In this document: positions 12,166-40,500 of the stretch, one piece after another
Layout of the letters: each line of letters starts with the position of its first letter
Position numbering within the stretch: position 1 is the first letter of the stretch
Assembly: GCF_902498745.1 (NCBI RefSeq)
Contig: NZ_LR701479.1
Location: 624,292-688,291 of the forward strand
Reading direction: 5' to 3'
Source of the DNA: Erythrobacter sp. EC-HK427
GTDB lineage: Bacteria > Pseudomonadota > Alphaproteobacteria > Sphingomonadales > Sphingomonadaceae
DNA: 64,000 nt
The notes under the pieces: model-generated
What the model saw: only the letters and a program-made list of their open reading frames with translations
What the model was told of the DNA's origin: nothing
Database searches by the model: none
Made by a program: the position numbers and the translations under genes

Positions 12166-13380
12166 ATGGCACGCGAATCATTCACGCCAACGACCCGGCT
12201 CAAGCTCGGGCAGAGAGCTGCCTATCGCTGCGCCTTTCCCGGTTGCAACCGCTTGACAATTGGCCCCGGTGTACAAGCCGACAAGATCGAGAATAGCGGA
12301 AAGGCCGCGCACATCTATGCCGCATCCGAATATGGCCCCCGCGGACAGGGTTTACTGACCCCGGAAGAGCTAAAGGCAATCACCAATGGTATATGGATGT
12401 GCGGCCATCACGCCGATCTGATCGACAAGAATAGCGGTGAACGGTATCCGGTCGCGGTGCTCAAGAGCTGGAAGGCGCTACACGATTATCGTATCGCCTA
12501 TGAACATAGCGGACGCGCCGCCGCTTTTGGCTTCGTGCGTTCATTAACCTTGCTGGCCTCGCCGCGTTTCGAACCAACGACGATCGAGTTCGGCAAGACC
12601 ACGTTTCTAGTTGGCGGAAATAAGAGCGGCAAGACAGCGCTGCTCGACTGGCTGTCGGTTCTCGACAGCCCACGCCGCTTGCGGCGATGGTTGGAACCCC
12701 GCCAGCTTCACTACGCACTGCTCTTCGATGCCCCCGGCGAGCATCGATTGGAAATCGAGACGGGTAATGGCGCTGTCCGATTTAACCTGGATGCTCGTCA
12801 AGTGGCGTTCAACCATCATCGCATCGCTGTAACCGCCCTCACAAAGCGCTACGACCACTCTGCGGAAGACGATCTCGCTAATATGATGAAGCTCTTTCAT
12901 CTAGACGACATCAGCGTCCGTTCGCTTGCCGAACTGATCGACAGCACAACGCTTTACCTGCGCTCAGCGCGTTTCGAACGAGAGACCGACGATGAGGGCG
13001 AGATGCGGGAAACCCTACAATGCAGACTTCAAGATGGCTCCGAGGTGCCCTTCGCTGCGCTATCGGGAGGCGAACAGGGGCGGGTCATTATGGAGTTCGC
13101 AATCGCGCACATGACGAGTGTCGCATCGGTTGCCCCGGCACTGCTTATCGTCGAGCGACCGAATCTTTGTATCGATGACGCCGGGTTCGGGTTCTATCTT
13201 GACTACTTTTCGAGCAGCGAGTGCCGTTTTCAAACGGTGGTTACCCAGTTCACCTTAACCGAGGATATCAAGGGCTTGGGTTGGCAGGTCTATCAGTTGA
13301 CAGGCGCCACCGACACCGCACTTGGCAAGATTGAACCGGTCCTGCCGAGTAAGTCAAAATCGGGGATGACTGACCGCTAA
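12166..13380 (+). CDS. HNH-like nuclease domain fused to ABC/SMC-type ATPase, candidate defence protein
   Basis: The protein has 404 residues. The N-terminal ~105 residues form an HNH-like domain: Cys22-x4-Cys27, AAHIYAAS with His49, GPRG at 57-60, then NGIWMC with Asn74 and Cys79, HH at 81-82 and LID at 85-87. I recall this arrangement from HNH-like domains found at the start of other defence proteins. The rest is an ABC-type ATPase: Walker A GGNKSGKT at 150-157, signature LSGGEQGR near 308, and Walker B LLIVERP near 336. The ATG at 12166 follows AGGAAGAAG; an upstream TTG would add 23 hydrophobic residues and is less likely. The composition recalls Septu (separate PtuA ATPase and PtuB HNH), but here the order is reversed and the parts are fused. 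It stands alone near other defence genes. A nuclease role is inference. Confidence 0.75.
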   Translation: MARESFTPTTRLKLGQRAAYRCAFPGCNRLTIGPGVQADKIENSGKAAHIYAASEYGPRGQGLLTPEELKAITNGIWMCGHHADLIDKNSGERYPVAVLKSWKALHDYRIAYEHSGRAAAFGFVRSLTLLASPRFEPTTIEFGKTTFLVGGNKSGKTALLDWLSVLDSPRRLRRWLEPRQLHYALLFDAPGEHRLEIETGNGAVRFNLDARQVAFNHHRIAVTALTKRYDHSAEDDLANMMKLFHLDDISVRSLAELIDSTTLYLRSARFERETDDEGEMRETLQCRLQDGSEVPFAALSGGEQGRVIMEFAIAHMTSVASVAPALLIVERPNLCIDDAGFGFYLDYFSSSECRFQTVVTQFTLTEDIKGLGWQVYQLTGATDTALGKIEPVLPSKSKSGMTDR

Positions 13381-18942: not shown

Positions 18943-18959
18943 CGATAGCTACGCTATCG
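18943..18959. terminator. Short hairpin between convergent genes
   Basis: CGATAGC (18943-18949) pairs perfectly with GCTATCG (18953-18959) around a 3-base loop, overlapping the hsdR stop codon. It sits exactly where the plus-strand PD-(D/E)XK operon meets hsdR. There is no clear T-run on either side, so the termination role is only suggested. Confidence 0.35.
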
Positions 18960-21900
18960 CCAGCTCGCAGCAAGCAGCTCAGCCTGTTCAATCACGGTCT
19001 TCACAGCGTCGTCTTGCAGGTCGGGCGGATACCCATACTTACGCAGGATACGCTTCACGAGGACGCGCATCCGAGCACGTGCTGATTCTCGCCGGGCCCA
19101 GTCCACGGTTGCATTCGAGCGGAGGCTGCGCACCAATTCGGCAGCGATCACTTTGAGGCTGTCATTGCCCATTACATCAACGGCACTTTCGTTGTCCGCC
19201 AACGCCTCGTAGAAGGCCATTTCTTCCTGGCTAAGGCCGTCTGCGTTGCCCTGCTCAATTTTCTCGCGAATGTCCTTCGCGAGCTCAATAAGAGCTTGGA
19301 TCACTTCCACAGTGCTGATTGCGTTCGTATGATAGCGGGCGATCGCATCATTCAATCGCTCTGAATACTTGCGGCTTTCGACCGCATGGGTTTCGGAGCG
19401 GGAACGGATTTTGTCGGCGAGGAGCTTCTTCAAGGCTTCGAGGGCAAGGTTTGGGCGCTCACTACCCTTCATTTCTGCCAGAAACTCATCTGACAGGATC
19501 GAGACATCGGGTGTCTCCATACCGGCAGCTTTGAGGATGTCGACAATGTCTGTGGACACCACGGAACGGTCGATGAGCTGCTGGACAGCGAACTCTCGCT
19601 CGCGCTTGGAGAGACCGCTGCTGGCGCTCTTCACCAACGCCGCTCTGACTGTCTGATAAAACGCCACCTGGTCGCGAATGGATTTCGCTTCATCGCTCGC
19701 AGAAGCCAAGGCGAAAGCCTTGCTCAAGCTCAGAACTGCATCCTGATAGCGGCGATGTGCAGCCCTTTTCGCATCGTCGCTCGTTTGATGCTGAGCGTCT
19801 TCGTGTTGCCGGGCAAGGATCCACTCGATGGCCTGCGCCAGACACTTCAAGCGTTGTGCTGGTGTGCCGGCGATACCTAGATCGGAGTCGAAGCCTCTAA
19901 ACATCGCTTGGACGACATCGAACTTCTCGAGCATCACTCGAACCGCGAGTTTTTCGTCGATACCCGTCTGTTCGCGATCCGAGGGCGAGTAAACACCGAG
20001 CGCCGCTTTCAAATTCTGAGCGATGCCGATGTAGTCAACTATGAGCCCCGCTTCCTTGTCGCGGAACACCCGGTTGACCCTAGCAATAGCCTGCATCAGA
20101 CCATGCCCCTGCATTGGCTTGTCGATATACATCGTGTGCATCGACGGAGCGTCAAAGCCGGTTAGCCACATATCTCGAACGATCACGAGTTTGAGCGGAT
20201 CGTCGGGTGCTTTGGCTCGTTTGGCCAGTTCATCGCGCCTCGCTTTGCCGCCAATGTGCGCTTGCCATTCCTGGGGATCTGACGCGCTCCCGGTCATGAC
20301 GACCTTGACCACCCCTTCCTTGTCATCGCCGGAATGCCACTCGGGTCGAAGCGCAACAATTTCATCGTAAAGAGCGACACAGATGCGCCTGCTCATGCAG
20401 ACCGCCATCGCCTTACCATCCAGAGCTTCGAGACGCCTCTCAAGGTGCTCGACCTGATCGGCTGCAATCATCTTGAGGCGTTCTTTCGAACCAACCAAGC
20501 GCTCTACGGCAGCCCAGCGTGCCTTCAGCTTCTCTTGGCTGGCCGTGTCCTCGTCCTCGGTGAGCTCCTCGATTTCCTCGTCGAGCTGAGGAATTTCGTC
20601 TTCGGGTAATTCGATACGAGCAAGGCGGCTCTCGTAGTAGATGGGGACCGTCGCACCATCCTCGACCGCCTGGCTGATATCATAGATGTCGACATAGCCG
20701 CCAAACACAGCGGGAGTATTCACGTCGTTCTGCTCAATCGGCGTTCCTGTAAAGCCGATGAAGGACGCGTTTGGCAGCGCATCCCTAAGGTACTTTGCAT
20801 GACCGTAACTGCGTTCACCTGATTTCTTGTCAATGCGAGCCTTGAAGCCATATTGAGAGCGATGCGCCTCATCGGCAATCACGATCACATTTTGCCGATC
20901 GCTGATAACCGGAAGCTCGTCACCCTCGGCGGGAGCGAATTTCTGAATGGTCGTGAAGATCACACCGCCCGCAGCTCGGTCGAGTTTCTCGCGCAAGTCG
21001 TCTCGGCTGTCAGCCTGGATCGGTGCTTGCCGAATGAGATCGCGACACATTGAGAATGTCCCGAAGAGTTGATCGTCGAGATCGTTCCGGTCGGTGATGA
21101 CCACGATAGTCGGGTTCTCAAGCGCTGGCTCTCGGACCAACAATCCGGCGTAAAATGCCATAAGCAGGCTCTTGCCTGAGCCTTGCGTATGCCAAATAAC
21201 ACCGATGCGCCTATCGCCGTCCCTTGCTTCGGGTCCATCATCCAAACAATAGACGGATTGATCAGGCAGGTGGCGCCGTTCACCTGTCGTCGCGGCGTAG
21301 GGTAGAGCGCGAAGGGTAGCGTCCAGCGCATTCTGTGCCGCGAAATACTGATGATATCCCGCCACGATTTTCACAGTCCCGGAGCCTGTTTCTCCAAAGA
21401 CGGTAAAATCGCGAACCAGCTGCAAAAGCGCGCGGCGGCAGAACACACCTTTGAGGACGGTTTCGAGCTGCGGATCACTGGTAGGGGCGAGAGTTTCGCC
21501 GTCGGTCGAGCGCCACGGCATGAACCGCTCTTCGTCTGCGGTCAGAGATCCGACGCGCGCCTTTATGCCGTCAGACGTTACGAGCAGCGCATTGGAGCGA
21601 AACAGTGATGGGATTTGCGACTTATATGTCTGAAGTTGGTTGAATGCCCCATGCAGGGTCGCGTTCTCGTCGCCGGGATTCTTCAATTCGATCACGGCTA
21701 GAGGCAGACCGTTGACGAACAACACAACGTCGGGTCGACGGGTATGACCGTCCTCGATGACGGTAAACTGATTGACCGCGAGCCAATCATTCTCTCCGTC
21801 CAGGTCCTCGAACGAAAGGAGCCTTACTCTATCGCCCCGCACGCCTTCACCATCATGGAATTCCACAGGCACGCCTTCGACAAGCAGACGATGGAGACGC

Positions 21901-22160
21901 CGGTTCTCCTCAACTAGTGACGGCGTTTCGCTCGCCAAGACACGACGAAGAGCCTCGTCGCGTGCATCAGACGACAAAGTCGGATTGAGGCGATCAATTG
22001 TCTCGCGCAACCGATCGACCAGGATTGTGTCGCCAAACGAGGGCCGGATCGGCTTGGCACTGTCAGGCGCCACTTCGATTCCGTAAGCAATTTCCCAGCC
22101 GATCTCGCCTAGCCACTCGAGGGCCGCTTCCTCAACATGAGATTCGGCGAGCTTGCCCAT
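18954..22160 (-). CDS. hsdR: Type I restriction endonuclease subunit R
   Basis: The 1068-residue protein has the full HsdR plan. The N-terminal PD-(D/E)XK nuclease shows [20 protein letters not shown] (Asp and the E-x-K pair). The SF2 translocase follows with Walker [12 protein letters not shown], motif [11 protein letters not shown], motif III FTGTPI and a helicase C domain with [21 protein letters not shown] helical C-terminus contacts the methylase. It cuts unmodified DNA after translocation with HsdM and HsdS. The ATG at 22160 overlaps the stop of the DUF262 gene by one base. The operon order (hsdM, hsdS, small gene, DUF262 gene, hsdR) places two extra genes between S and R. All catalytic motifs look intact, so the system is probably functional. 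Confidence 0.95.
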
Positions 22161-23923
22161 CAACCGAGCTTCTCGAAACCTTCGCGAACGATCTGCGCCA
22201 TGCGCTTGCGCCGCTCACCAAGAAACTCATCATAGGGCATGGCCTGCCATGCGTCGGGCAAAGCATGCAGACGGTGCATTGTCTGCCAATCACTATCGCT
22301 AAACCGTGTTTGCAATTCCGGAACGTAGTCCGACGGCGCCCTATCACTTATATCAATGTTGTCAGGCCATTCCACCAAGGCGTAGTTCGCCATCTGATTG
22401 CGTGAACGTTGGTCTTCGACCCCTTGCTTTTCCAACCACGCCTTGGGGAAAAGATGGTGGCGTTCGAGCGCTTTCTTGGTCGCTTTCACCGTCGGATCGA
22501 GCATGTCTGCCACGGTCTTGTGCGAGAACAGCACGGGCGCACCCAGTCTGTTCTGCGCAGCGAAGAACGCAAACAGTTGCGGGTTGCGCGCTGAGGAACT
22601 GTCGAACTCGGATGGCAGGGTAATTTGCCAATAATCGTTCGTCAGTTCGCTCGTAATCTCTCCGCCCAGCCAATGCATGAAAGCATCGCCTGTGCCGATC
22701 TCGCGAATGCGCGCAAGGTCGCCGTCCATGACTGTCTCCGGGGAGCTGGTGTAGCGCCCGGTCAAGGAGGAAAAGAAGAACCATCGGCCAATGGCCTTCT
22801 GGAGTTTATATTCCGGTAATCCGAAGCGCACCTTGCCGATGAGGTAGAAGGCATAGCCGAACAGGAGCGCATTGACCGAAGAAACAAGCTCTCCGCTGCG
22901 GAAGCCCGCGCCCACTAGCGCTTTGAAATACTGGTGCCAGTTATTGAGGTTCAGGACGTGCGCCTGTGCTTCGGAGAGCACATCGAACTGGTCTTGCCTG
23001 CGCTGGGGATCATACTCTCCGGTGTCCGGATCCTTGCCACGAAGGACCTGATACACGCTCTTCAAACGACCGCGGTTGAAAGCTAGTGCTACGGCAACAC
23101 GCAGAAGTTGGTCGGGATCGGGTTCAAGAAAATGATTGAACGGGGACGTGTCCGAGCCCTTTGCCGGCACACGGGCTTTCCGACAGAACGTCTCAAGGTC
23201 GGCGCGACCTTTGTCCCAGAATACCGATAGTAAAGTCAGAATAAAGTCGGCTTGGTTGAGCTTCACACCTTCGCTGTTGATCCGGACAAAGATGTCCGCG
23301 ACCTGCTCCTCGTCGACCGACTGAGCAATTTCTAGGGCCGTGAACGGATACTTCTGCAGATCGAACAGTCTATCAAGATTGTGAGCGATATGCTCCTCTT
23401 CCTCGTCGCTGAGCTCGGATTTGTCAGCAAGCTTATCAATGAAGCTGTTCACCAGCTTCCGGCTTGAAGCCCCAGATGACCACAACTCAGAGATATTGGG
23501 GATCCACTCTGGATCGCGGCGAATGGCTGCGTCGGCCACCTCGAATTTTCCGTCGCGGGGCCGGAAGGCGATTTCAATCTGACGGAAGGCGTAGTTCTCA
23601 TCCAACACCTTCTGCCCACGGAATACAGCGTAGAGTGAAGTCAGGCGCTGCTGACCATCAACAATAAGACGTGCTGGCGCCTCGCGCTGTTTGTCGTCCA
23701 TGCCGATCTGCTTGGCACCGTTCATTGCGGTGTTTTCCCAGAACAGCAGATATCCCACAGGGAAACCCCGATACATGGAATCAAAAAGATCGCGGACCTT
23801 CGCGTTTTTCCAAACGAACGGGCGCTGGATATCAGGCAGGCCGATATCGCCCACGTCGATAAAGTGCAGCAGGCTGGAAAGGTCGTAGTCGACGCGCTTG
23901 AAACAGGTCTTCAATTCACTCAC
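22160..23923 (-). CDS. DUF262/DUF1524 GmrSD-like protein inside the type I restriction operon
   Basis: This 587-residue protein starts with a DUF262 (ParB-like) domain: [12 protein letters not shown], then [13 protein letters not shown], the nucleotide-binding signature, and [16 protein letters not shown]. The C-terminal DUF1524 His-Me finger nuclease shows [11 protein letters not shown] and [12 protein letters not shown]. GmrSD and BrxU proteins with this architecture cleave modified phage DNA (for example glucosylated hydroxymethylcytosine) in a nucleotide-dependent way. I chose the GTG at 23923, preceded by a perfect AGGAGGT; a TTG at 23947 is possible. The stop overlaps hsdR by one base. 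Its position in the hsd operon suggests the same transcript handles unmodified and hypermodified DNA. The specificity cannot be told from sequence. Confidence 0.88.
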
Positions 23924-23943
23924 GCGCACCTCCTGCTGCGTAA

Positions 23944-24336
23944 TCAATAGGTTGCGAACTTGCTCAAATCGCGATCAATCGCAATCCCTTGCAAAGATTT
24001 ACGGACAGCCATTGCAATGTCGCCCCACTCTTTTGCGCCTTCGGCAAGCGCCATTTCTAGGAGCTGGCGTTCGGACTGTTCCAGCCGGTCGACCTGCCAT
24101 GCTATCATTGGATCGACGGTTTGGTCGAACGCCGCTTCCAGCATCGGGTGCGGGCCTTCCTGCACCTCTCGGCAATACTCATCCCAGACCGACTTGAATC
24201 GGTAGTCGTCTCCGAAAATGCCGCTTGCCGGCATACGCTGCATGGCGGTGATCACCTTGCGCGCGAGCGCCTGGATACGGGAATCGGAGAACCGCCACGC
24301 TGCTTTCCGGAGTGCCGAGTCCAGATCGTCGCTCAT
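23944..24336 (-). CDS. Unknown 130-residue protein in the type I restriction operon
   Basis: The product is mainly helical and acidic, with no motif I can name. It opens [16 protein letters not shown], has a central MPASGIFGDDYRFKSVWDEY, and ends with a Glu/Leu-rich helix and a basic-to-polar tail. Its ATG at 24336 overlaps the hsdS stop (ATGA), and the DUF262 gene starts 21 bases after its stop. Conserved small genes between hsdS and hsdR are known in some loci, sometimes as regulators or anti-restriction partners. Here it may be specific to the GmrSD-like insertion. No function can be assigned. Confidence 0.7.
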   Translation of the reverse strand: MSDDLDSALRKAAWRFSDSRIQALARKVITAMQRMPASGIFGDDYRFKSVWDEYCREVQEGPHPMLEAAFDQTVDPMIAWQVDRLEQSERQLLEMALAEGAKEWGDIAMAVRKSLQGIAIDRDLSKFATY

Positions 24337-25603
24337 GCAGCGGAAAACTCTTTGCTAGCCATATCGCCGACGCGGATTTCGCCGGACATTAGCTTGGGCA
24401 GGAGGAGGTCGCGGGTGCGCGTCAGAGTTCGGCACTCAAGTTCGTTGGTTCGAACTTTTTGATCGATTGGGCCTACCAGCTCATCGAAGGCCTTGAGCAC
24501 GGCCATGTCAGGCTCGACTGTTTTTAGTGCTTCAAACTGCTTCTTATTGATCGCGCCAAATACCGTCCCGGTATGCTGATAGATTTCCAGTTCCGAACGA
24601 AGGGCTGCGGCGGAATAATACGTGAAGCTCGCCGATCCCGACTTATGTCGCACTGCGGCGACCCCTCGGCCCACACAACTTTTTTCCCATGCCAAATTGA
24701 TATCGCCGACTGGCGCACGCACGCTGACCAAGGTGTCTTCTGCCTCAGCAACGCGCTTCGGCGCATCGCAATACTTTCGATTTTCAGGATACCGGAAGCC
24801 GAAGTCGGTTCGCCCTTGGAAGAACGGCAAGCCCTCACCGTCATCGTTGTAAGTATCGCCTGGGGGGGATTGACCCATCGTTAGGTTGAAACTGGCGCCA
24901 ATAGTGCTGCGCTTCCACCCCTCCGGCACGCCGTCGTCGTCGAGGCGGATGGGAAAGAGGGACCAGACGTCCGGCGCCAGATAGGGGGTGTCGCCAGCCA
25001 TCTTGGCCTTCACCGGGCCGAAATCGACGAACCAGTCGCGGAACAGCACCCGCGCCTGCGCCTCCAGCGTCTCGTTCATCCGCCGGTTCAACTCGATCTT
25101 GTCGTCGAGGGCGGAGAGCAGCCCAGAGATTGCTTCTTGGTCGGCAATTGGCGGCACCGGCAACTCAAAATTCGGAACGTCTGCACAGCGCAAGCTATCG
25201 AATACTGCGCCCACATTGATGAACTTGGCAATTTGATCCCACCAGAGGGGACTTGATGCCAGCCAGCGTAGAAAACCGGGAGAGACACGTTCACCGCTTG
25301 CGCGCAGGAGCACCAGATTCTGACCGAGAGCGAAAGGCGTGTCATCACGGACAGGCGCTATAACGCCGGGGTTCGTTCTGCGAGAAAGCACGATATCGTG
25401 CATCTGCGGCTTTGTTTTGACCGTCCACTTTATGAAGTCCGCGTCCGATATTTTTCGAGCGTCGTCGAAGTCTAATCGACCATCCTTCATCTGTGGAATG
25501 CCAATATAAGGATAGCCGCTTTCGACAGCAGCGGGGGTAGCATGGACACAATCTATCAGTGTGACACCCGCTTCGCGCAGGGTCATTATTTCCCACCCAG
25601 CCA

Positions 25604-25607
<4 letters not shown>
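24333..25607 (-). CDS. hsdS: Type I restriction-modification specificity subunit S
   Basis: The 424 residues show the HsdS layout: two target-recognition domains separated by a conserved helical spacer. The first domain covers residues 1-150, the spacer is around 160-205 ([20 protein letters not shown] and [16 protein letters not shown]), the second domain is about 215-370, and a closing helix ends with [15 protein letters not shown]. The subunit decides which bipartite sequence is methylated and cut. The start ATG at 25607 overlaps the hsdM stop (ATGA). The recognition sequence cannot be read from the protein. The gene is intact, without phase-variable repeats or inverted copies nearby. Confidence 0.93.
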
Positions 25608-27166
<1,559 letters not shown>

Positions 27167-27229: not shown

Positions 27230-30200
27230 TCAAACCTTCTTAACAGCAAAATAGCTTTCCCCAACGCCGGCGACCGCAGTCGATGCGCGCAAGAGCTCAT
27301 TCGCCTGCGCAGCGGGTGCCGAACGAAAGTCATGCCGCGGTGGGGTGCCGGCTACGCGCCAATATCCAAACCCTTGGTCGAGCAGCACGAACACCTTCTG
27401 ACCATCGGCGTATTCAAGCTCGAGCTTGCGGCCATGGTCGGAATTTTCCGTGACCTGCAGATCGACATCGAGGCCAAACTTTTCGCCCAATAGCTCGGCT
27501 ACTTCCGCTCGGTCGTCTTCATACTCCCAGTCATGGAAGATCCGATGGGGTGGCCGATCCTTCTTCAGTGGCTGGACCAGGATATCGACTTCGACCGGGC
27601 TATCCGACTTCAGGTCAGCAGATAGAGCTTCGCATGTCCGCAGGAAGAGAAGCATCGGTAGAGGCGCGTTAAGATAGCGGTCGGTGTAGGTGATCCGCAC
27701 AAGACTGCCGGGCCTCCAGACGCCAGCCGCCTCCAATTGGTGCTTCAGCTTGGCTCCGAAGCGTTTCCCAAACTGGCTCACAGGGCATTGGCCAAACCCC
27801 TGCATCAGCTCAACCTGATCACCCGCTGCAACCTGACGCTCCAGTTCCTCTGGGTCGATTGGCTCAAAGATAGTGTGACTATCCAGCGTACCGGCAACCA
27901 CCGCGTGCGTTGCCCCCACCCCCCAGAGTTCTCCGGGCTGAGCCGCGTTCGCATCGCGCGAGAAGAACCCCGTAATGCTCTCGCTCGATTTCAGCTCAGC
28001 GAGGCGAACGATGCCAAATGCCACGCCTTGTGCGCTTGCCAGGCCAAGAGCAAACTCGAAGCGCACCGATGCATCGCGCAGGAATCTCCGCTCAACTTCT
28101 TCTAGGCTTTCAAACGACTTCGTATCGAGCACCAGCGCAACAGGCAATCCGCGTACCGAGGCTGCCGAGAAGAACGATCGCATCTTAGTTGATGTCAGCT
28201 CAGCCAGATCGAACGTCGATGGCAAGAAGATAGAGATGCTGTCCCCGCCGCCTGCTTTCAGCAGAAGCGTGTTTGCCGCATCATTAATGGGCCTTGCATC
28301 GGCAACAGCCTGATCTTCCTCTGGCAGTTCGGCATTTTTCTCAATGAAGGCCTGGACGGCAACGAGTGCAGCACGCCTATCGAGCTTTCCCTGTTGCTTG
28401 AAGAGATCGGCAGAAAGCACACACGCGGAACAGCCCATCTCACACTCATTCGGGCAATCGAGGACGTGAGCCGCTCGCTCAAAGACATGATAAATATCGT
28501 CAAGAAGTCTCGGAGCGTATCCGGCACCTCCAGATGCCTTATCGAAGATGTAGACCGACGGCACTCTGCGACCCAGCTTGCCGTCTCGAGCTGCCACGGA
28601 AATCCCAAGTTCCCGAGGTTCGATCGCTAGCCAGCGCACAAGACCCTCGCGCAGCGCTGCGCCAAACGCCCAGGCCGCACCATCGCTTCCCAGACCTGGC
28701 AACTGGACCTCGACAACGTCGGTGAGGACTTCGTGACCCAAAGCGAGGGCCCCCGTGATAGCGTAGCCCTCGTCGTTGCCAGGGCAGCGCTCCATAGCCT
28801 TCTGGTTTCTGGGGGTAAGCGGCCTGTGGTCTTTCAGCGCATCGGTCCCCGCGTCGCCAGCCCGTCCGCATTCCAGACAAATCTCGTAGCCCTTGTCGTC
28901 AGGACCACGCGAATGGTTGTAGATATATCCTTCGCGCGACGCGCGGATCCGGCCACTTTCGGGCTGCAACAAAGGCTGCCAGAGAGCATCGCCCACGCTG
29001 ACCTTGTGAGACTTTGGCTCGATATAAACTGCCTGGTCAGTGTCGGCATGCGGCTGCGCATTCCAGTCGACGCGGAACCCGGCCGGTTCAAGAAACTGCT
29101 CAATGGTAATGCTGCGCTCGCCGCAATGATCACAGTGATCGGGCATCTGGTGATCGCTTCCTGCGCCGCCACAATGATCACACCACCAGGCCCAGCGAAG
29201 GTTCTGTGGCTCACGCTGACCGCTGTCGATGGGGCTCAGCCAATTCAGAGTTACCCCGGCGGACCTCCAAACCAGACCGTCGACAACGACCTCAGCCCCG
29301 GGGGCATACTCTCGGATGGCGATATCAGCGTTGCGCGTAGGGCATTCGTAGCGCCTGTCACGGGTGCCTTCATCTTCCGAACGATTGCGCTCCTGCGCCT
29401 TCTGGGTTTCAGCACAAAGAGTGTCGAATGGAACAACTGCTGTTGGGAAGCCGCTGCCTGGGATAAGCGAACGATTGGCAAGCTCCTTCAAAAGAAACTC
29501 TTTGCAGAGGCGCCGTGCTTGGAACTCGATCGCCTTCTTCGCCGGACCATCAAGCGCGTCCGCATCCTCTTTGAGGCGCTGCCAGGTGCGCCGGAAGTTT
29601 GCGGCTTCTTTGGCGAACATCTTTGCCGTGTGTTTCCTGATCTCAGCATCGTATGCGAGGCCAGTTCCCGCGAGAAGACGTTTGAGCCCCTGCTCGGTAG
29701 CCGAGGCTGTCGCTGGAAGTTCAAGCCACTTGCAGAAGTCGTCAACTGGCACGAGATCTTCAAAGGTACGCAGGTCCGAGCGGCAGCCGAAGAAATCCCC
29801 CGTTTTTGTCTTGGCGAACTCACCGTCAACCTCACGGAACCACTGCGCAAGCAGGTAAGCGTTGGCGTGACGCTGTGCGATCCGGTCAGAATCGAGCGAT
29901 ACGCGCGGAGAGGCCAGTTTGCGCCGCATATAGCCAGCCGGATCAGCAAATGTTTCGAGATCGAGCGGCGTATTCCGGGCGATCGTGAGGCTGGTAGAGA
30001 AGCCCTGTCCGCGGCGGCCCGCTCGGCCGGCTCGCTGATTGTAGTTGGCAATCGAGGGTGGAACGTTGGTCATCAGCACGGCTTCGATCGAGCCGATGTC
30101 CACACCCATTTCCATTGTGGTGGAGCAGGCGAGCAAGTTGATATCGCCTGCCTTGAACTGCTCCTCGAAGTCGCGCAGCCGTTGAGGGGGCTGCTGAGCA

Positions 30201-33187
30201 CTGTGTTCCTCGGCTCGTAGGTAGGGCGTGCCGAGCGCTGCCTGATCGTGAAGATCGGTCCAAAGGTGCAACTGTCGAAGGATTTGGATTGATGTGTCTT
30301 CAACCAGCCAATCTCTGATCTCTTTCTTATCGTCTGACGAGAGCGGTCGCGTACGCGGAACTTTGGAAAACTCTATCGGCAAGACGGCTTTCCCGTCGAT
30401 CTTGCTTCCAGGCCGTACCAGATTGGGCGACCTCCCGAATACAAGACGCGGTAATGCGCGGCGAGTCAGGGGGCATTGCCAAGCTCTTTCAACCGCCTCG
30501 ATCTCGGCTTTCTTTTCGAGACGCAAGGTGAATGTCCCACCAACACCCGAAAGAAGGGGGGAGAGTTGATTCCAAGCGGCATGCATAACCTGATTGATCT
30601 CATGGCGGTCGCGCTGAGAAGTAAGATCAAGGTTCAGAGCTGACGCCAAGAGAAGGATAGAGTCGGGCTGGCGACCCTTAGAATTGACGGTCGGCCAGGA
30701 AGCGTCACGCTTTTCGCCTAGAAGCTCCTCGGGTCCGGTCACATTGCGTGGCCGAGCCCGTCCGGGCATCCAGCGTGCGTCGCCCTCATCCACCTCAATG
30801 GCAAACTGGCCCCGAAGAAAATCGACCATATAGTACAGGAAATCGCGCCAGTGCTCGATCGAGTAGCCGTTCTCGCTCACGATTGGCGGTAGCTTGTCCA
30901 CACCAATTCTCTCGATGTCTGGGAATCGTAACCGCGCAAGCCCTAGCGTTTCCATTGCGTTGGCATTGCGGGGGCGACGGGCGAGTTCGCGCAAGAGCAT
31001 GAAGCGGGCCAGCGCTTCCCGGTTATCGTGAAATCGTTCGCTGCGATCAAGGTCCCAGACCTTGGCCATCATGCCAATAGCCGGCTCAGAAGCAAGCGCT
31101 GACACGAGATCCGTCCAGGGTATGCCGGTTGCCGCTCCACCAGCAAGCTCAGCGTCGATCTTGGCGATATCATCTTGGAAGGCAGGCATATCTGCCACGA
31201 AACCCGCTAGAACGGCCTTCTTTTTGAGTAGCTCTTCCCTGTGCTCAACGGTCAGGTCGCTGCCCCGGGCGGCCTTCTGAACGGCATGGTAGATAAAGCC
31301 GCGAACGAAGCCCCGCTCACCGTTGGTTTCAATATTGGCAGCGAAGCGGGCAGTTCCCTGCCTGCTGTCCGAAAAGCTGATCAGCTGACGGCCATCGAAC
31401 GGCAGGGCGTGCTCCGCCTGATGCGGCGACACACCGTCAAGAAGGATTGGTGCTGCATTCTGGGTGAGGAATGGTGTGCCAAAGCGAAAGGGGAAGATGG
31501 CCGGTCGCCCGCGCCGCTTGTTCCCGAGACAGGCCGGGCAACGTCCCTCATTGAGCTGGGTCAGATAAAAATGTCCCGCCTCGCCAGTAAACTCTCCGCT
31601 GGATACATCGAAAGCGGTCGCGGTAGCTTCGGGTTTCGGGTTGATGGCAATCAGCCGTGGATGGCCGATCCCCTCATGCTCATCTTCTTCATCGTCATCA
31701 TCATGATCGCGATCACGATAGCTATCTTCGCGAAACTCATCTGCATCATGATCACTTCGCCGCTGTACGATCCTATCGCCCATGTCATCGGCCGGAAGGA
31801 AGGGCTCGCCACAATCGAGGCAGTTCTGAATTTCGAACACCATCGACTGGCAATGCGGGCATTGGTCCCGATGGTCGAAGAGCACAGCGCCAAATGGCCA
31901 ATCCTTGGGCCGCATCTCACTCGGGCAATCGACATTGATGCAGGTCCAGAGCCCGGCAACTGCCCGCGTGAAGCTGTGTGCTCGCATCGGCAGGACAGGC
32001 TTCGCTTCGCTTGCATTATGGGCCGACAGATCGAGCAAAATCCTTTCGGCATCCGGCGAAAGCGCTTTAAGCGAGGCCAGGGTCTGGGGCTCGCCTTCCA
32101 GCTTCTCGGCAACCGACGATGCTGCCGGATCATCGGACGCTGTCAGGACCTTCGAGAGGTCGACCGGCTGAGGCTTGCCCACAATGACATGCGCCCGCTC
32201 AAGCGGAACGCCAGCAATGTCGGCAAGGAATTTCTGAAGGTCGTTGCGGGCCTTCTGGTCGTCAGCAGAGCCGATGGTCGCCGACGTCGCAACGAAGCGG
32301 ACCTGATCCGGCGTCACATCGAATGCGTTCATTACCCGGCGAAGCAGGAGCGAGAGCTCCGCCGCTGCCGAGCCGATGTAACTGTGCGCTTCGTCGATAA
32401 TGATCCAGCGCAGCTTGCCTTTTGATGCGTCGAGGATCGGACGATCCTCGCGCCGGATCGTCATGTATTCGAGCATCGTCTGGTTGGTAACGAGGATCGG
32501 TGGTGGGTTAGCCCGGAGGGTTTCGCGGTAAAGAACCTGATGCGGTATCTCGTGCTCAGCCTTGTCGCGATTGGACTTCCGCGCCGTTCCCATCAATCCG
32601 TTGTAGAGGGCAAAGCGGACAGCGCCGCCGAGCGGCTTGGTCCAGGCTGTAAGACGCTTCTCCTGGCTCGCAATGAGAGCATTCAGAGGATAGAGCATAA
32701 GGGCTCGCACCCCTGTCAGCGGACCATACTCTGCAGACTCCCGGACCAGATCATCGAGCATCGGGACCAGGAAACACTCGGTCTTGCCCGACCCCGTGCC
32801 GCTCGAAACCAGGACCGAATGCGGCTCTTGCGTGCTGAGCAGTTCCCATGCCGCCAGCTGGTGCGCGTAGGCAGGGTAATCGAAGCGTAATTCAGTATCC
32901 GATGTTTGCGTGATCGCGTCGATTGTGCGCTGATGCAGCAGCGCATGAAGTTGGTCAGGACTTTTTCCTGACGACACATAGCCGGGAGCAGCCTGAAAAA
33001 GCTGTTCGGAAAGGAGGCTACCGTTTACGGGGTCCGTACCGGCAAGAGTGCTCCGGAGAAAAGCGTTAAGCCCTTGGTGCCGGATACCTGCGCGCGAGAC
33101 AACCGCTTCGGCGAGACCAGTCCTCAGCCGCTGGTGCACCTCCATCGGCGACAATCGGGATGTAGGGAGGGGATCACTGGCGGCCAT
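27230..33187 (-). CDS. druE: DruE-like giant DUF1998 helicase of Druantia (type III)
   Basis: This 1985-residue superfamily-2 helicase has Walker A SSGTGSGKTECFLVP near residue 130, DEAH box WIIIDEAHSYIG near 264, ATSATIGS after it, and motif VI NYNQRAGRAGRRGQGFS near 1054. Putative zinc clusters are at ~415-465 (CINVDC, CPHC, CLDCGE) and ~1330-1360 (WWCDHCGG, HCDHCGE). The C-terminal DUF1998 region has CPNECEMGCSAC near 1582 and a ~350-residue extension. Size and domains fit DruE, the signature protein of Druantia anti-phage systems. With DruH directly upstream, this is the two-gene type III. The ATG at 33187 overlaps druH by 14 bases and follows CGGAG; longer upstream starts lie inside druH. 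The mechanism of Druantia is not well understood. Confidence 0.85.
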   Translation of the reverse strand: MAASDPLPTSRLSPMEVHQRLRTGLAEAVVSRAGIRHQGLNAFLRSTLAGTDPVNGSLLSEQLFQAAPGYVSSGKSPDQLHALLHQRTIDAITQTSDTELRFDYPAYAHQLAAWELLSTQEPHSVLVSSGTGSGKTECFLVPMLDDLVRESAEYGPLTGVRALMLYPLNALIASQEKRLTAWTKPLGGAVRFALYNGLMGTARKSNRDKAEHEIPHQVLYRETLRANPPPILVTNQTMLEYMTIRREDRPILDASKGKLRWIIIDEAHSYIGSAAAELSLLLRRVMNAFDVTPDQVRFVATSATIGSADDQKARNDLQKFLADIAGVPLERAHVIVGKPQPVDLSKVLTASDDPAASSVAEKLEGEPQTLASLKALSPDAERILLDLSAHNASEAKPVLPMRAHSFTRAVAGLWTCINVDCPSEMRPKDWPFGAVLFDHRDQCPHCQSMVFEIQNCLDCGEPFLPADDMGDRIVQRRSDHDADEFREDSYRDRDHDDDDEEDEHEGIGHPRLIAINPKPEATATAFDVSSGEFTGEAGHFYLTQLNEGRCPACLGNKRRGRPAIFPFRFGTPFLTQNAAPILLDGVSPHQAEHALPFDGRQLISFSDSRQGTARFAANIETNGERGFVRGFIYHAVQKAARGSDLTVEHREELLKKKAVLAGFVADMPAFQDDIAKIDAELAGGAATGIPWTDLVSALASEPAIGMMAKVWDLDRSERFHDNREALARFMLLRELARRPRNANAMETLGLARLRFPDIERIGVDKLPPIVSENGYSIEHWRDFLYYMVDFLRGQFAIEVDEGDARWMPGRARPRNVTGPEELLGEKRDASWPTVNSKGRQPDSILLLASALNLDLTSQRDRHEINQVMHAAWNQLSPLLSGVGGTFTLRLEKKAEIEAVERAWQCPLTRRALPRLVFGRSPNLVRPGSKIDGKAVLPIEFSKVPRTRPLSSDDKKEIRDWLVEDTSIQILRQLHLWTDLHDQAALGTPYLRAEEHSAQQPPQRLRDFEEQFKAGDINLLACSTTMEMGVDIGSIEAVLMTNVPPSIANYNQRAGRAGRRGQGFSTSLTIARNTPLDLETFADPAGYMRRKLASPRVSLDSDRIAQRHANAYLLAQWFREVDGEFAKTKTGDFFGCRSDLRTFEDLVPVDDFCKWLELPATASATEQGLKRLLAGTGLAYDAEIRKHTAKMFAKEAANFRRTWQRLKEDADALDGPAKKAIEFQARRLCKEFLLKELANRSLIPGSGFPTAVVPFDTLCAETQKAQERNRSEDEGTRDRRYECPTRNADIAIREYAPGAEVVVDGLVWRSAGVTLNWLSPIDSGQREPQNLRWAWWCDHCGGAGSDHQMPDHCDHCGERSITIEQFLEPAGFRVDWNAQPHADTDQAVYIEPKSHKVSVGDALWQPLLQPESGRIRASREGYIYNHSRGPDDKGYEICLECGRAGDAGTDALKDHRPLTPRNQKAMERCPGNDEGYAITGALALGHEVLTDVVEVQLPGLGSDGAAWAFGAALREGLVRWLAIEPRELGISVAARDGKLGRRVPSVYIFDKASGGAGYAPRLLDDIYHVFERAAHVLDCPNECEMGCSACVLSADLFKQQGKLDRRAALVAVQAFIEKNAELPEEDQAVADARPINDAANTLLLKAGGGDSISIFLPSTFDLAELTSTKMRSFFSAASVRGLPVALVLDTKSFESLEEVERRFLRDASVRFEFALGLASAQGVAFGIVRLAELKSSESITGFFSRDANAAQPGELWGVGATHAVVAGTLDSHTIFEPIDPEELERQVAAGDQVELMQGFGQCPVSQFGKRFGAKLKHQLEAAGVWRPGSLVRITYTDRYLNAPLPMLLFLRTCEALSADLKSDSPVEVDILVQPLKKDRPPHRIFHDWEYEDDRAEVAELLGEKFGLDVDLQVTENSDHGRKLELEYADGQKVFVLLDQGFGYWRVAGTPPRHDFRSAPAAQANELLRASTAVAGVGESYFAVKKV

Positions 33188-36100
33188 TCTTGAGCTCCGA
33201 AAGGGCATAGCCAAAGGCTTTGGCAAAATAGTCGGGGTGACGTCGTTCGACGTCCTTGATGGTGAGGACTTGCTCCTTCTTGAGAGAAGCACGTCCGGTA
33301 GCGGACAGAGCAGCGGCGAAAGGAGCATCGAAGGCCCGCATCAGCGCTTCGACGAAGTTCTCTCTTGGCAGTAGCTCGCTGTAAGCAGGCCGAAAAGGGT
33401 TGAAGCCGCCGGCATCCATATTGATGCCCTCGCTTGTATGGCTCGTGAAGTGGTTGCGAAGCTCTTCCCAGCTCAACGGTGAGAAGTCCCGGCAAATGAG
33501 TGGCGCAAGCTGCGGCGCACGCGCCGCGATTTCGTTCTGACGTTCCGTGATGTTTGCCAACGCCCACTGAGGGTCATCGAGCCGGCTGACCAGATAATTG
33601 CCTTGAGCCTGAAAGGCAGCGTCCCAGGCCTTGATCGGCAAAAGAGACCAGCTTGAGCACAGGCCATCAAACAGCTCGAGGATCGTCGAGAGGTGTTGCT
33701 CCTCGCAGCGATAAAGAAGGAGCGGCGCAAGCGGACCGGCAATCTCAAACTTGCTGAAGATTTCGAACGTCTGCGGAGGCAAGCCATTGAGCGACAGCGC
33801 CAAATCCATGACTGCACGAATGGTCTGGGTCGCTTCAGAAGACATGGGCTCGGCAGCGAGTTCCTCCGCCAGCCGCACCAAGTCCTCGCGCGCCTGCAAA
33901 AGAGGCTGTGCCATGGCCCGGCCGAGCCTGTGTTGCGGAACGTCGTGAACCGGATCGCCGTCGATAAACTTTGGCCTCGTGAGGACGCGAGAACCTTCGC
34001 GCAGATAGACGAGCCATGGACCGCGCAATCGTGGCAGCTGGATCAATTGCCCTCCGAGGCCGCCAAGCAATCCGTCAAACGGACCGAAATCCACCTCTTT
34101 CTCGGGAGCACCAAGAAAGCGGCCGCCAACGCGGACATCCTCGCCGACAATGGCCGTTTTCGGACGCAGCCCTCCCGAAGGCTCCCACTCAAGAGAATTG
34201 CCGAATTCCGTGACGTACCAGTTGTCATTGCTGCCGTTGTGAAAGTCGAGCCGGACCTGGGCATCGATGCCGAGCGGCCGCATCAAGGCGGCAATATCGT
34301 TGCGCAGAGCCGACAGGCCCAGTTCGACATCGACCTTCCAACTCGCCTCTAGCGACGCTCCAGCGTGATGGGCAACTTCGCCCATCAGCATCGCACGGCC
34401 CGGCGCGCGGGCAACGGTGTCACGAAGATCGGCGAGGCCTACGATAGTATCGCGCCTGAGAAGTTCGCCATCCCAGGTCGTCAGCCATTCTTTCGATCGC
34501 AAAGGCACATTGAGGTCGAAAGTGGAGCCATGATAGGGGGTGAGGCGCAAGCCGAGCACCGCGCGACGGGGCGGATCGATCCGCACCCGCCAGCGATGGT
34601 CCGCAATCGGCGTTTCATCGCTGAGCACCGCTTCTCCGGTCCAACCTTCCAAAAGGACTTCCGCATGGGCCGCATTTATCCGCTGGCTGAGTGCGAATTC
34701 AGCCGGCAGAACCAGTGCATTCGTCCGGTCCCGAACATGCTTGGTCGCGCCATCGAGCCAGGCGAACTCGCAATGCCCAGGGCCCGCGTTGACAAGATCA
34801 TCGCGCCAAGTGCTTTCCCCTGCAAACCGCCAGCCGACCTCTCCACGCGTTGCAGTGCGCCGGGAAACCCCGTCTTCGACTTCTGCATGCAGCGGATGTT
34901 TGATCAACCGCTCGCCGCCGGGTGCCTGCACACCGGTCGCCTCTTGGGCCACTATGGTCAGGCGATCCTTACGATCTGCACTCTGCCCCGTCCGCACCAG
35001 AAATGCGTCGCCGTTGGGCTTCTCGGCGATGATCTGGCCAGCACAGCGGTAGAGCGAGCGACCAGGTGCAAAAGCAAAGTCCTCGGCTTCGATCTCTGTA
35101 TTGCTGTCCTTGCCGCGAAGCATCCAATCCTGCGGAACATCGACAAAGACTGGTTCGGCGCGATAACCACCTGACCCCTGACCGATAAGGGAATACGTGC
35201 CTAGCTCCGTGTCTCCGGTCCGCCGCTCAAATATCCGCAGTCCATCCCCAACCGCTTTGCCGCCCGGCAGGACAAAGCTTTGGGCTAGTCTTTCGCCGCG
35301 CGCATGGAATTCGGCGGTGACGGAGAGGTCCAAGGGAAAATCGATCGCAGCTTCGCTGCGCATTGCGCGCGCTACCCAGCAATTGCCTGATTCGACCTCA
35401 AGGTAAGCCAGCCGACCGGAAATACGGTCTGCCAAGGCACCCGAGGGCTGAAGTAACACGCGGACATATTCACCTGCGGACAGCACACGATCCTTGTCGT
35501 CCCAGCGACCTTCGAGATGGAAAGCCAAGCTTTCGCACCATTCACCATCCTGCGAACGCATCAGCCGTCCGACCCGGATACTCCCTGTTCCGGTCAGCTT
35601 TCTGGCTTCAAGGAGCGTATCGATGAGGCTCGCAGCTGCCCCGTCGAGCGTCATCGGCAGTTCATCGCGCCAGTCTTCGTAAGCGTGGTCCAGCCGGGCC
35701 GAATAAGGGCGACCGTCAACTGGCACTTCCTTGTCGATGAATGCACGAAGCTCGACGATCTTGAGGGCAAGTTCCCCGCAGATTGCGTGCATTTCCGGGC
35801 TGCGCCAGATTGAGGGAAGCAGATAATCGTTACGTTCGCAGATCGAGACAGCGTTAGCGATATCCTGCACCTCTACTCCCAGCAGTTCGCCGACTACCCG
35901 TTCAAGGTAACGGCGTGGCCAGCTGGCGCCGCTCGAGATTGCCGCTGCCGGGAATCCTCCCTGTCGCGCCAGATTGGAAAGTCGTTGGTTCCCATGCGCC
36001 GTAATGAGCGGATTAACGCCCCAGGCATCGAAGCCTCGATCCGCAAGGGCTCGCCATTCCGACTGCGGAAGCTGGAGACCCAAAACGGTTCCAATGTCGG

Positions 36101-36470
36101 ACCATCGCTGGATGCCGCCTTGGTAAGAGCGGCGAAACCAGTCGGCGGCCCAAAGGACGAAAGCGGGGGCCAGAGAGTGGCGCAGAATTGCTGATCCAAG
36201 AGTGGCGGATAGCTTGGCTTCTATCCGCTGAAAAATCTCCGGAGCTAGCTTGTAGCGGTAAAGCGGCATCCCCGTAGGACGGGGTATACCAAGATCACTG
36301 CAGACTTTTCCCAACGGATGCGGGCCGCTTTCTGCGGACCGGGCCAGATGGATGGCACGGATCATCAAAATGCGGGAACCGCTGATTGCGTGTATGTCAT
36401 CGGCGATCTTGCGCAGTTGTACCGGGTCGGTTCGCGCCGCATCGATCTCGCGCTTAAAGTCCCGGGTCAT
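33174..36470 (-). CDS. druH: DruH-like Druantia type III protein (STY4851-like)
   Basis: The 1098-residue protein contains no catalytic motif I can recognise. It looks mixed alpha/beta, with a helical first third, a central beta-rich region rich in aromatic and charged residues, and a helical end. Size and position, coupled to the giant DUF1998 helicase and just upstream of it, match DruH of Druantia type III, which I recall as a large protein of unknown function annotated in enterobacteria as STY4851/ECs_5259. Its ATG at 36470 overlaps the stop of the 325-residue gene (ATGA), and its end overlaps druE by 14 bases. The call rests on context, length and general style. A profile search would confirm it. 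Confidence 0.75.
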   Translation of the reverse strand: MTRDFKREIDAARTDPVQLRKIADDIHAISGSRILMIRAIHLARSAESGPHPLGKVCSDLGIPRPTGMPLYRYKLAPEIFQRIEAKLSATLGSAILRHSLAPAFVLWAADWFRRSYQGGIQRWSDIGTVLGLQLPQSEWRALADRGFDAWGVNPLITAHGNQRLSNLARQGGFPAAAISSGASWPRRYLERVVGELLGVEVQDIANAVSICERNDYLLPSIWRSPEMHAICGELALKIVELRAFIDKEVPVDGRPYSARLDHAYEDWRDELPMTLDGAAASLIDTLLEARKLTGTGSIRVGRLMRSQDGEWCESLAFHLEGRWDDKDRVLSAGEYVRVLLQPSGALADRISGRLAYLEVESGNCWVARAMRSEAAIDFPLDLSVTAEFHARGERLAQSFVLPGGKAVGDGLRIFERRTGDTELGTYSLIGQGSGGYRAEPVFVDVPQDWMLRGKDSNTEIEAEDFAFAPGRSLYRCAGQIIAEKPNGDAFLVRTGQSADRKDRLTIVAQEATGVQAPGGERLIKHPLHAEVEDGVSRRTATRGEVGWRFAGESTWRDDLVNAGPGHCEFAWLDGATKHVRDRTNALVLPAEFALSQRINAAHAEVLLEGWTGEAVLSDETPIADHRWRVRIDPPRRAVLGLRLTPYHGSTFDLNVPLRSKEWLTTWDGELLRRDTIVGLADLRDTVARAPGRAMLMGEVAHHAGASLEASWKVDVELGLSALRNDIAALMRPLGIDAQVRLDFHNGSNDNWYVTEFGNSLEWEPSGGLRPKTAIVGEDVRVGGRFLGAPEKEVDFGPFDGLLGGLGGQLIQLPRLRGPWLVYLREGSRVLTRPKFIDGDPVHDVPQHRLGRAMAQPLLQAREDLVRLAEELAAEPMSSEATQTIRAVMDLALSLNGLPPQTFEIFSKFEIAGPLAPLLLYRCEEQHLSTILELFDGLCSSWSLLPIKAWDAAFQAQGNYLVSRLDDPQWALANITERQNEIAARAPQLAPLICRDFSPLSWEELRNHFTSHTSEGINMDAGGFNPFRPAYSELLPRENFVEALMRAFDAPFAAALSATGRASLKKEQVLTIKDVERRHPDYFAKAFGYALSELKNGRQ

Positions 36471-37505: not shown

Positions 37506-40500
37506 TCAGTGCATTACTCCACTGCCTGACGTCGAACTCTCGTGGAACGCGTTCACCACACAAGACCAGCGCGCATTCATCACACCATCGATACCACGTC
37601 CAAGATCCCAGATAATTGTATCGCCATTCTCTAATTGGGCTCTGACATAACGATCGTGTAAGTCGCCACCTGAGCGCCGCGATTTCTGTGCGAGATGGAG
37701 GCGAACCGAGGCTAGCATACGCCGCCAGCGATCTTCGAGGTCTTGCCGCTGGTCATGCGTGCTCTCGGGCTCGCGAGTTTGCACAGAATCGGCGTCGAAG
37801 GTCACGATCTGGACTGCGGCGATCTCCGAAGCCAGCTGTGCGAGGCGGCTGATGAAATTGATGAGACGCCCGCGCGCCTGCTCGTCTGCGCAACAATAGG
37901 GATCTTGAATTTCGAGCCATCCAATTCGCGCATCGCGGACGTATTGCTCGAAAATTGTCCAGTCACGTTGGCCATATTGCTCAAACACGACACGCCGAAC
38001 GTATTGCACACGCGCTTCGGCCGCTTCGACGGGTGTGCGTATTGAAAGTATCGGGCGCCGCTCTTGATGCTCGGCATCGCTGGACGCAACCTCTCCAGGC
38101 TCAGACAGCGCACCAGCAGAGACCGCGTCTTTAAAAGCCTGATCAACCGTGATCTCCGAATCCTGATCAAGCGGCCTACCATCCCGTGCGCTTTCGCGCG
38201 GGGTTTCGAAGGTAGGGGTGCCTGCACTGTCGCCAGCCGGTTTCTCAAGCGCAGGTGACACCACTTGAGGGCCAAGCGGGTCGGGAGACCCAGCTCTGTC
38301 ACCTTGAAGGGAGCTTTCAATCTCCATTGGCGCCTCTTCGGCGGCAACAGCCGAACTGCGGATATCGCTGTTTGTTGTAGGGCGCCCATCGAGTACGTCG
38401 GAAAGCAGATCCTCTACGTCGCGATCGCTCTCCGGCGGCATCAGCAGACCCCGGCTCAGCGAACGCTTGCGCTCCATGAGGGCGTCGAGACGCTGGTCGA
38501 AGCTTGAAGAGCCAATGGCTTCGTCGGGGTGTACAGCCATCGGGATGTGGATGGTCACTGGCTTGGTCTGGCCGATCCGGTAGGCCCGATCCGTCGCCTG
38601 ATCTTCAACCGCCGGATTCCACCAGCGAGACAGGTGGATCACATTGTTTGCAGCGGTTATGGTAAGCCCGACGCCGCCCGCCTTTGGAGAAAGGATGAGA
38701 ACATCGAACGCGGCTTGAGAATTCTGGAAAGCAGCGACCATTTCCTGGCGCTTATGGCCCGCGACCTTCCCGCTGATGCACATCGGGCGGCGCTCGAGCG
38801 AGAAGCGTTCCTGAATTGCCATTGCGAGAAAAGCCTGCATCTCAAGATCTTCGCAGAATAGCAGAGCCTTTTCGCCGCGCTGCTTGACCTCCTCAAGGAT
38901 CTCAAAGGTCTTCTTCAGGCGTGCAGATTGCCCGATGTAATCGTCGATGTTGGTAATTCCGCGCGGCGGCGACGGGTGGAGCGATGTACCGCGCAACATG
39001 TGCAGCACTTTGAGCATCGCTCCCTGTTCACCGCTTTCCCGCAGCGCTCGCGCTCGCGCGAGTACGAGGTCGTAAGCCTGCGCTTGTGAAGGCGGCATCT
39101 CGACCGGATATTTGCGCGCCCTTTTCTCCGGCAAACCGGTGAGAATTTCGTCCTTCATTCGACGCAGCATGAACGGTGGAAGTTCTTTGTCGCGATCGAT
39201 GAGGCGGTGCTGGAGATCGCCAAGGCGCTCGAGATCGTTCGCGGGGAAGCTGTTCTCGAATTCCCGGCTTGAGCCGAGGAACCCTGGATAGACAGTATCG
39301 GCAATTGACCAGAGGTCCTGTAACCGGTTTTCGACCGGTGTGCCCGTCATAGCGATCTGGATTCTTCCATTCAGCGCCTTTGCGGCCCGCGTCATCTGGC
39401 TGGCAGGATTCTTGAGCTTCTGGATTTCGTCGTAGACGATGGCTGCAAACGGAACGCGCGCGAAGCTCATATGATAATCGCGCATCGTTTCGTAGGTCGT
39501 CAGGACAATTCCGGCGTCAGACCATTCGGATACATCGATACGCGAAGTTCCCCCGCGAATATCGCTCCCCGACCCAAGACGGAAATTGCGCAGGTTTGCG
39601 CCGAACGCCTCGACAACGGGCCCCATGAGCTCTTCTTCGATGTGCTGCGAAAGCTCGGCTTGCCAATTTCGCAGAAGACCTGTGGGCGCGACAATCAAGA
39701 CGGGCTTCTGGTGAGGCGTTTTACTGCGCAGCCACAGCAGGAACATGAGCGCTTGGAAGGTCTTGCCGAGCCCCATATCGTCGGCAAGCAAGACGCCCGG
39801 CATTCGGCGCTCCCAGGCCTCGGCAAGCCAGGCGAACGCCTGCACCTGGTGAGGCTTGGGTTCTGATCTCAGTCCGTTGGGGAGCTCGGGAGCATCGAAA
39901 TTCTGCACTTCGGCGTCGGGACGAGGCAGCCGCGCATAGTCCAGCTGCTCAAAATTCTCACCGACCTGAAGGAAGAAAATATCGACGCTATCGCGTTCGG
40001 TTCTGTCCGAGCCTGGTCCTCCGACCTCGAGAGCTATCTCACGTTCTAGGTCTGCGATTGCGCGTGCAGCCTGCAGTGTCGCGGGAGTGGCGGGGATGCT
40101 TCCGTCGCGCCAGGCGATCGTTTCCTGACCTGCGCCAATCGCAGTCTCGACTTCGCATACAATCGTCTCGGCTTCACCTGGAGCCAACTCGACATGACGC
40201 GCGTCGGGCGGATCCCCAATCCGCAAACCAAACCCTTCCGGCAGCCAACTGTTCGGCTGGGGTTTGATCCAAGGCAAGACGGGCTTTTGCCAGACCTCGA
40301 TCCCGCTGACCCGTTCAGAGAATTGCTGCGTTTCAATGAAGAGGCGATCGGCCGCCTCGTCATCGCCTCCTGCATCGAGCTTGAGCTCTTCTCGCAGAAC
40401 ACGTTGCGGCGACCGCAGAAACTCACGCTTCTCCTGTGACGTGCCAGTCTGTTTGGCGCGCACGATGTCAAGTGCTTTGCCGAGAAGCGGATCAAGGAAC

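Follow-up and report, generated by a model that had tools for sequence, protein, structure and literature searches.

A DNA stretch of 64,000 nucleotides from Erythrobacter sp. EC-HK427 (in the following, the window) holds a real and conserved gene for a protein of 404 residues, in which an N-terminal HNH domain of the Cap5 type is joined to a C-terminal, degenerate ABC ATPase-like domain. We consider it probably a one-gene anti-phage system, i.e., a candidate without earlier description. The gene and its parts are located as follows.

12166..13380, + strand: HNH-ABC fusion gene (open reading frame, 404 aa; with full-length relatives and signs of purifying selection)
12169..12501, + strand: Cap5-type HNH domain (residues 2-112; PADLOC Effector/SAVED_HNH profiles, PDB 8ysq, 9om4, 7rwk)
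12520..13365, + strand: degenerate ABC ATPase-like domain (about residues 119-400; ABC_tran, AAA_15 and Rad50/SMC1A matches)
12613..12636, + strand: Walker A, GGNKSGKT (residues 150-157; K156 invariant in 12/12 members)
13060..13080, + strand: ABC signature, LSGGEQG (residues 299-305; identical in the relative with 78% identity)
13141..13161, + strand: Walker B position, LLIVERP (residues 326-332; with Arg at the site of the catalytic Glu)

The reading frame starts with the ATG at 12166 and its stop codon ends at 13380. A TTG at 12097 would give a longer frame; this is the less likely start, since DNA similarity to the relative from Rhodobacter xinxiangensis (78% protein identity; locus L002) sets in at 12155, i.e., just before the ATG. 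The first-pass annotation had described an HNH-ABC fusion within a single gene that stands alone, and the spacing bears this out: 623 bases separate it from a large RTX-like gene ending at 11542 upstream, and the next downstream ORF taken as a gene (13734) follows after 353 bases. The upstream gene (4139-11542) encodes a 2467-aa protein with, as judged by eye, RTX/cadherin-like repeats and a lipase-like N-terminus. A promoter scan of the fusion gene found none (1.4 expected in shuffles). Compared with L002 over 395 codons, pN is 0.133 and pS is 0.727, the latter near saturation, and the gene is under purifying selection. When the whole window is compared with the 21-kb stretch of L002, DNA similarity is confined to 12155-13301, such that the gene is shared with L002 without its neighbours. 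Within its own genome, the 404-aa protein has no second copy at E <= 0.001 (self-match only); the family profile adds five weak matches to other ABC-type genes (best 2.5e-4).

Altogether, 12 distinct full-length members were found in Pseudomonadota, Actinomycetota and Bacillota, where L022 is left out of the count as near-identical to L021. Beside the Rhodobacter relative, they include a protein of Agrobacterium arsenijevicii (54% identity) and plasmid-borne relatives from Kitasatospora (L015, 33.7%), Streptomyces (31.6%) and Priestia (27.7%). A further member (L044/L067) is found in genome G942, which is of the same family as the Rhodobacter relative; L021, L022, L023 and L024 are located on IMG/VR contigs, and a second form is present in Sphingomonas AAP5 and Rhizobium hidalgonense. 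Single-member scans for additional viral relatives, including one with L044, gave no new locus, and one of them returned two known ones. The family looks rare: with counts that are lower bounds, as about 4-6 first-look candidates were scored per genome, a draw of the phylum gave a full-length match in 1/398 genomes (its own) and a match at 1e-10 in 12/398 (the other 11 concern the HNH half), and further draws gave full-length matches in 1/297 (the draw's centre genome; 7 with any match), 2/295 (one of them the centre; 8 with any match) and 1/346 genomes (its own; 6 with any match). A split two-gene form was considered and rejected, since the profile of the ABC half, with 10 candidates scored per genome, matched in 2 of 248 genomes and was fused to HNH in both. 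Against plasmids, the Erythrobacter ABC half retrieved 5 records at E <= 1, i.e., the Kitasatospora fusion and short P-loop matches.

By profile, the HNH half groups with the Cap5 (HNH-SAVED) effectors of CBASS and not with PtuB of Septu. In PADLOC, the matches of residues 2-112 are to endonuclease effectors of CBASS and to SAVED-HNH proteins (best 1.4e-23). The solved chains matched by this half are 8ysq and 7rwk, both SAVED-domain proteins, as well as 9om4, an HNH endonuclease for whose PDB chain no paper was found. The first-pass annotation had listed Cys22, Cys27, His49, Asn74, Cys79 and His82 as HNH-like motif residues. All of them are present: the first five are invariant in 12/12 distinct full-length members, and position 82 is either His (8/12) or Cys (4/12), as is expected of a zinc ligand. 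The Cys/His/Asn positions correspond to those in the 8ysq alignment, and by this analogy C22, C27, C79 and H82 are the presumed zinc ligands and H49 and N74 the presumed HNH motif residues. Over the three phyla, 23/112 positions of the HNH half are invariant. For Cap5 itself, PMC8568899 describes homodimeric HNH domains, which contain zinc and Mg sites and degrade DNA once the SAVED domains have rearranged.

The same HNH type also occurs with other partners. It is fused to a NACHT-like NTPase (motif by eye) in open frames of 854-1503 aa (L005, L038, L040-L043, L045, L054, L057, L058), and the genome draws contained ten such HNH-NACHT-like loci versus four HNH-ABC fusions. Furthermore, a recurrent protein of 214-217 aa combines this HNH with a short unknown C-terminal domain (L006, L039, L046, L048, L049, L050). 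In a tree of the HNH domains (FastTree), the Erythrobacter protein groups with L002, L003, L044 and the Actinomycetota members with a support of 0.70, which is modest and refers to a short domain. L018/L019 and the two Bacillota members fall into other parts of the tree, next to HNH domains joined to different partners; the NACHT/SAVED labels of these partners were read from motifs and lengths and not from profiles. Given this scatter, there may have been more than one fusion event. Dropped from the tree were 13 duplicate or near-identical sequences (L001, L053, L059, L036, L037, L034, L035, L033, L051, L052, L022, L028, L047), along with three rows that were poor or distant (L032, L014, L008).

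The ABC half, judged by its matches, resembles Rad50, GajA and AriA and is degenerate. Walker A and the signature, both claimed in the first-pass annotation, are present (K156; LSGGEQ from residue 299). For Walker B the position was found, but the catalytic motif is not intact, with Glu in place of the usual Asp and Arg in place of the catalytic Glu. By sequence, the domain is ABC ATPase-like; its activity as an ATPase is at best putative, the Walker B glutamate being absent. In Pfam, ABC_tran matches the Erythrobacter protein with 0.001, i.e., under the cut-off, and other members match AAA_15 (6/9, best 2.3e-10) and AAA_21 (4/9, best 4.5e-11). Profiles of the ABC half retrieve Rad50 and SMC1A chains. 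Among ABC proteins of defence systems in PADLOC, the best match of the Erythrobacter protein is GajA (6.3e-6, residues 136-199); AriA matches at 3.9e-4 (residues 135-166 only), and both matches are local and weak. Family-wide, among the PADLOC matches listed (25 of 67 families), AriA and mad3 are each found for 5/8 members, with a best value of 8e-11 for AriA.

Invariant positions in the ABC half number 6/286. Comparing profiles of the ABC halves, the group of the Erythrobacter protein, L002 and L003 shows relatedness to four others across some 230-255 columns, with scores of 99.0% (Actinomycetota), 97.9% (L044), 97.0% (Bacillota pair) and 94.5% (L018/L019). The remaining pairings range from 97.2% down to low values, e.g., 6.4% for L044 vs. 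L018/L019, and the 93.3% of the Actinomycetota group vs. L018/L019 refers to 34 columns only.

The Walker A lysine is kept also in L044, where the loop is shorter by one residue. The catalytic Glu of Walker B is kept in 4/12 members (L015, L016, L023, L024), all from the Actinomycetota-like group, and is replaced in the other 8/12 by Arg, Arg, Trp, Gly, His, His, Ser and Ser. The switch His shows the identical split (missing in 8/12, kept in 4), and hydrolysis thus looks dispensable in these eight members. Their signature is recognisable, though often altered. Of the Glu-keeping members, L015 retains part of it (RGSEQ), L024 has a doubtful one (IGGKE), and L016 and L023 have none that can be recognised, the alignment of the Actinomycetota members having large gaps in this region. 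All motif losses are counted over only 12 members and thus few lineages. In the Erythrobacter protein and most relatives, the ABC half would be an ATP-binding switch with little hydrolysis, and L015, which has the Asp-Glu pair, may hydrolyse ATP.

The surroundings of the gene within the window comprise the following genes, such that the defence genes nearby, reported in the first-pass annotation, are indeed found.

85-2673: conjugation gene (TraG_N)
18954..27166, - strand: type I restriction-modification genes (PADLOC REase_I, Specificity_I, MTase_I)
27230..36470, - strand: Druantia III genes DruE3/DruH3 (PADLOC)
37506..45515, - strand: Zorya I genes zorA-D (PADLOC)
46499-49435: RecD-like, perhaps relaxase, protein
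49498-52020: TrwB-type coupling protein

Flanked by TraG_N and TrwB, the region looks like the cargo of an integrated conjugative element, and 85-52020 is probably such an element carrying type I restriction, Druantia III and Zorya I. No tRNA was found at an island border within the window. Two further genes of the region were observed. Inside the type I restriction operon (22160-23947), a 595-aa protein matches HEC-05 (1.8e-35) and PDC-M55C with its N-terminal part. At 17578-18288, a protein of 236 aa matches the PDDEXK_4 nuclease profile and adjoins an HTH gene and a gene that is HipA-like by eye.

Defence matches (PADLOC) near the fusion were found at 7/9 loci examined, which is a raw count based on neighbours picked by eye within the stretch of each locus. 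The window is one of these seven; the others have type I restriction and an OLD/AriA-like protein (L002), part of a type IIG methyltransferase about 8 kb off (L003), a type II methyltransferase (L017), LmuB (L019), type IIG and PDC-S41 (L021), and type I restriction, Sir2-like and type II methyltransferase genes (L067). L015 and L018, with one neighbour examined each, gave no defence match in PADLOC. Genes of many kinds travel in defence islands, which counts against deriving a defence role from context.

That the fusion is not a described system, as held by the first-pass annotation, stands after searching both the profiles and the literature. Taken separately, the halves came out as Cap5-type (HNH) and as similar to Rad50/SMC1A and GajA/AriA (ABC). 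No profile covers the full length of the Erythrobacter protein, neither in Pfam and NCBIfam (E <= 1) nor among all 20 PADLOC families matched at E <= 0.001. No description of an HNH-ABC fusion was found in the literature searched, as far as its text was accessible, such that an earlier mention is possible; the accessible parts of PMC10853773, PMC8568899, PMC11555353, PMC12948488, PMC12409363, PMC10568477, PMC10952713, PMC10440598, PMC12137116 and PMC11980606 do not describe it.

A kinship with Septu, with whose two activities the first-pass annotation had compared the fusion, is not supported. Septu also combines an ABC ATPase with an HNH nuclease, but does so with two genes, PtuA and PtuB, whereas the fusion is one ORF with another HNH type. 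The PtuB profile is absent among the 20 PADLOC matches of the Erythrobacter protein (E <= 0.001), while CBASS endonuclease profiles reach 1e-23, and the PtuA match (7e-4) is confined to residues 127-165, i.e., 39 residues around Walker A. Septu membership is excluded by these profiles.

With Cap5, the fusion shares the N-terminal HNH type, by profile, and a single-chain layout with the sensor C-terminal to the effector. It differs in its C-terminal half, which is ABC ATPase-like and not SAVED, and in that no cyclase gene adjoins. Pfam gave no SAVED match at E <= 1, the endonuclease/SAVED_HNH matches end at residues 102-131 (PADLOC, among the matches listed), and a PADLOC scan of 18 proteins from the window at 1e-8 showed no CD-NTase. 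OLD and Gabija's GajA likewise unite a nuclease with an ABC ATPase-like domain in a single polypeptide; here, however, the nuclease of the fusion is an N-terminal HNH and not Toprim (no Pfam match at E <= 1, GajA covering residues 136-199 only), no helicase gene adjoins, and the Walker B glutamate is missing. The AriA profile of PARIS (AriA/AriB, sometimes fused) matches 5/8 fusion members among the matches listed, but the Erythrobacter protein only weakly, and PARIS is set apart by its effector, the Toprim nuclease AriB instead of an HNH. The ATPase domain of GajA inhibits its nuclease via ATP/GTP according to PMC10952713, and AriA keeps the AriB nuclease inactive until a phage protein binds, as stated in PMC12409363. 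By analogy, the fusion would work most like Cap5 and OLD/Gabija, yet it belongs to neither.

As the best explanation, which we put forward tentatively and with somewhat less than even confidence, the protein is a single-gene sensor-plus-effector defence nuclease, in which a hydrolysis-poor ABC switch holds or releases the Cap5-type HNH via nucleotide occupancy. The N-terminal HNH, of the Cap5 kind, would be the effector that, once released, cuts nucleic acid (most likely DNA) with little sequence choice. The C-terminal ABC domain would be sensor and lock: it would bind ATP, hydrolyse it poorly or not at all in most members, and serve as an occupancy switch and not as a motor. As long as the cell is healthy, ABC dimers with bound nucleotide would keep the paired HNH domains inactive. 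Nucleotide depletion, or a phage component that binds the ABC half, would rearrange the HNH domains such that they cut, which would stop the phage and probably the cell too. For this scheme, we infer nuclease activity, a role in defence, DNA as target, dimer formation and the direction of nucleotide control.

The role of the ABC half as sensor and lock is suggested by the related ABC parts of GajA and AriA. Since the catalytic glutamate is missing, control by occupancy is likelier than control by hydrolysis. The direction of the control is the weakest step of this explanation; we prefer 'nucleotide-bound' to mean 'off' because this avoids a nuclease that is stuck on in an ATP-rich cell. Four Actinomycetota-like members keep both the catalytic Glu and the switch His and may hydrolyse ATP, L015 above all, so that one mechanism need not fit the whole family.

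With the direction reversed, phage DNA ends or another ligand would dimerise the ABC domains together with ATP, and the ATP-bound dimer would turn the HNH on in a Rad50-like manner. ATP-bound Rad50/SMC1A dimers engage DNA, and chains of both are among those matched by the ABC-half profiles. We nevertheless consider this unlikely: the ABC domain is not long enough to contain a coiled coil and, with the Glu replaced in 8/12 members, an ATP-on switch would be constantly active unless a second ligand were required.

A role outside defence, i.e., as a nuclease of mobile-element maintenance or repair, would agree with the position between the conjugation genes TraG_N and TrwB and with the plasmids and IMG/VR viral contigs that carry the gene elsewhere. 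It appears quite unlikely given that no conserved partner gene was seen across the neighbourhoods read and that the same HNH type is found on CBASS effectors. The HNH might also cut tRNA or other RNA in the fashion of retron-Eco7 PtuAB, in which, according to PMC11555353, an HNH with an ABC partner can lead to tRNA loss. We regard such an RNase effector as very unlikely, since the HNH is like that of Cap5, which cuts DNA, and PtuB is unmatched at E <= 0.001.

PrrC and RloC act as guards of type I restriction, and the fusion could in the same manner fire when the neighbouring enzyme is blocked, with type I genes about 5.6 kb (window), 2.9 kb (L002) and 1.5 kb (L067) away. Type I restriction genes are, however, common in defence islands, the fusion is located outside the hsd operon in all three of these loci, and at other loci their place is taken by type II, type IIG or Lamassu genes, which makes this guard function highly improbable. 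Finally, an effector acting in trans for CBASS has close to negligible probability despite the Cap5-like HNH, as the only SMODS-type CD-NTase of the genome (C2:1546342) is about 0.9 Mb away and adjoins its own 2TM effector as a CBASS pair (L066, 6928-8840), and the ABC half is without SAVED match.

Taking the single-gene sensor-plus-effector nuclease further, it is possible, if doubtful, that the family forms a distinct class of immune nucleases. That is, it would be an HNH lock that reads nucleotide occupancy, with a composite ATPase site decayed by different routes per phylum, and an HNH counterpart of OLD/GajA that was built independently, perhaps more than once. From the motifs, these routes may be the loss of Glu and switch His in Pseudomonadota and Bacillota and a weakened or lost signature in Actinomycetota.

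Because the PADLOC 2023 profiles match the fusion in parts only, scans may miss it or call it a CBASS effector. One HNH effector type is common to CBASS and to an ABC-ATPase fusion, and the latter provides a compact single-gene candidate of 400 residues for nucleotide sensing by a hydrolysis-poor ABC domain, testable with two point mutants.
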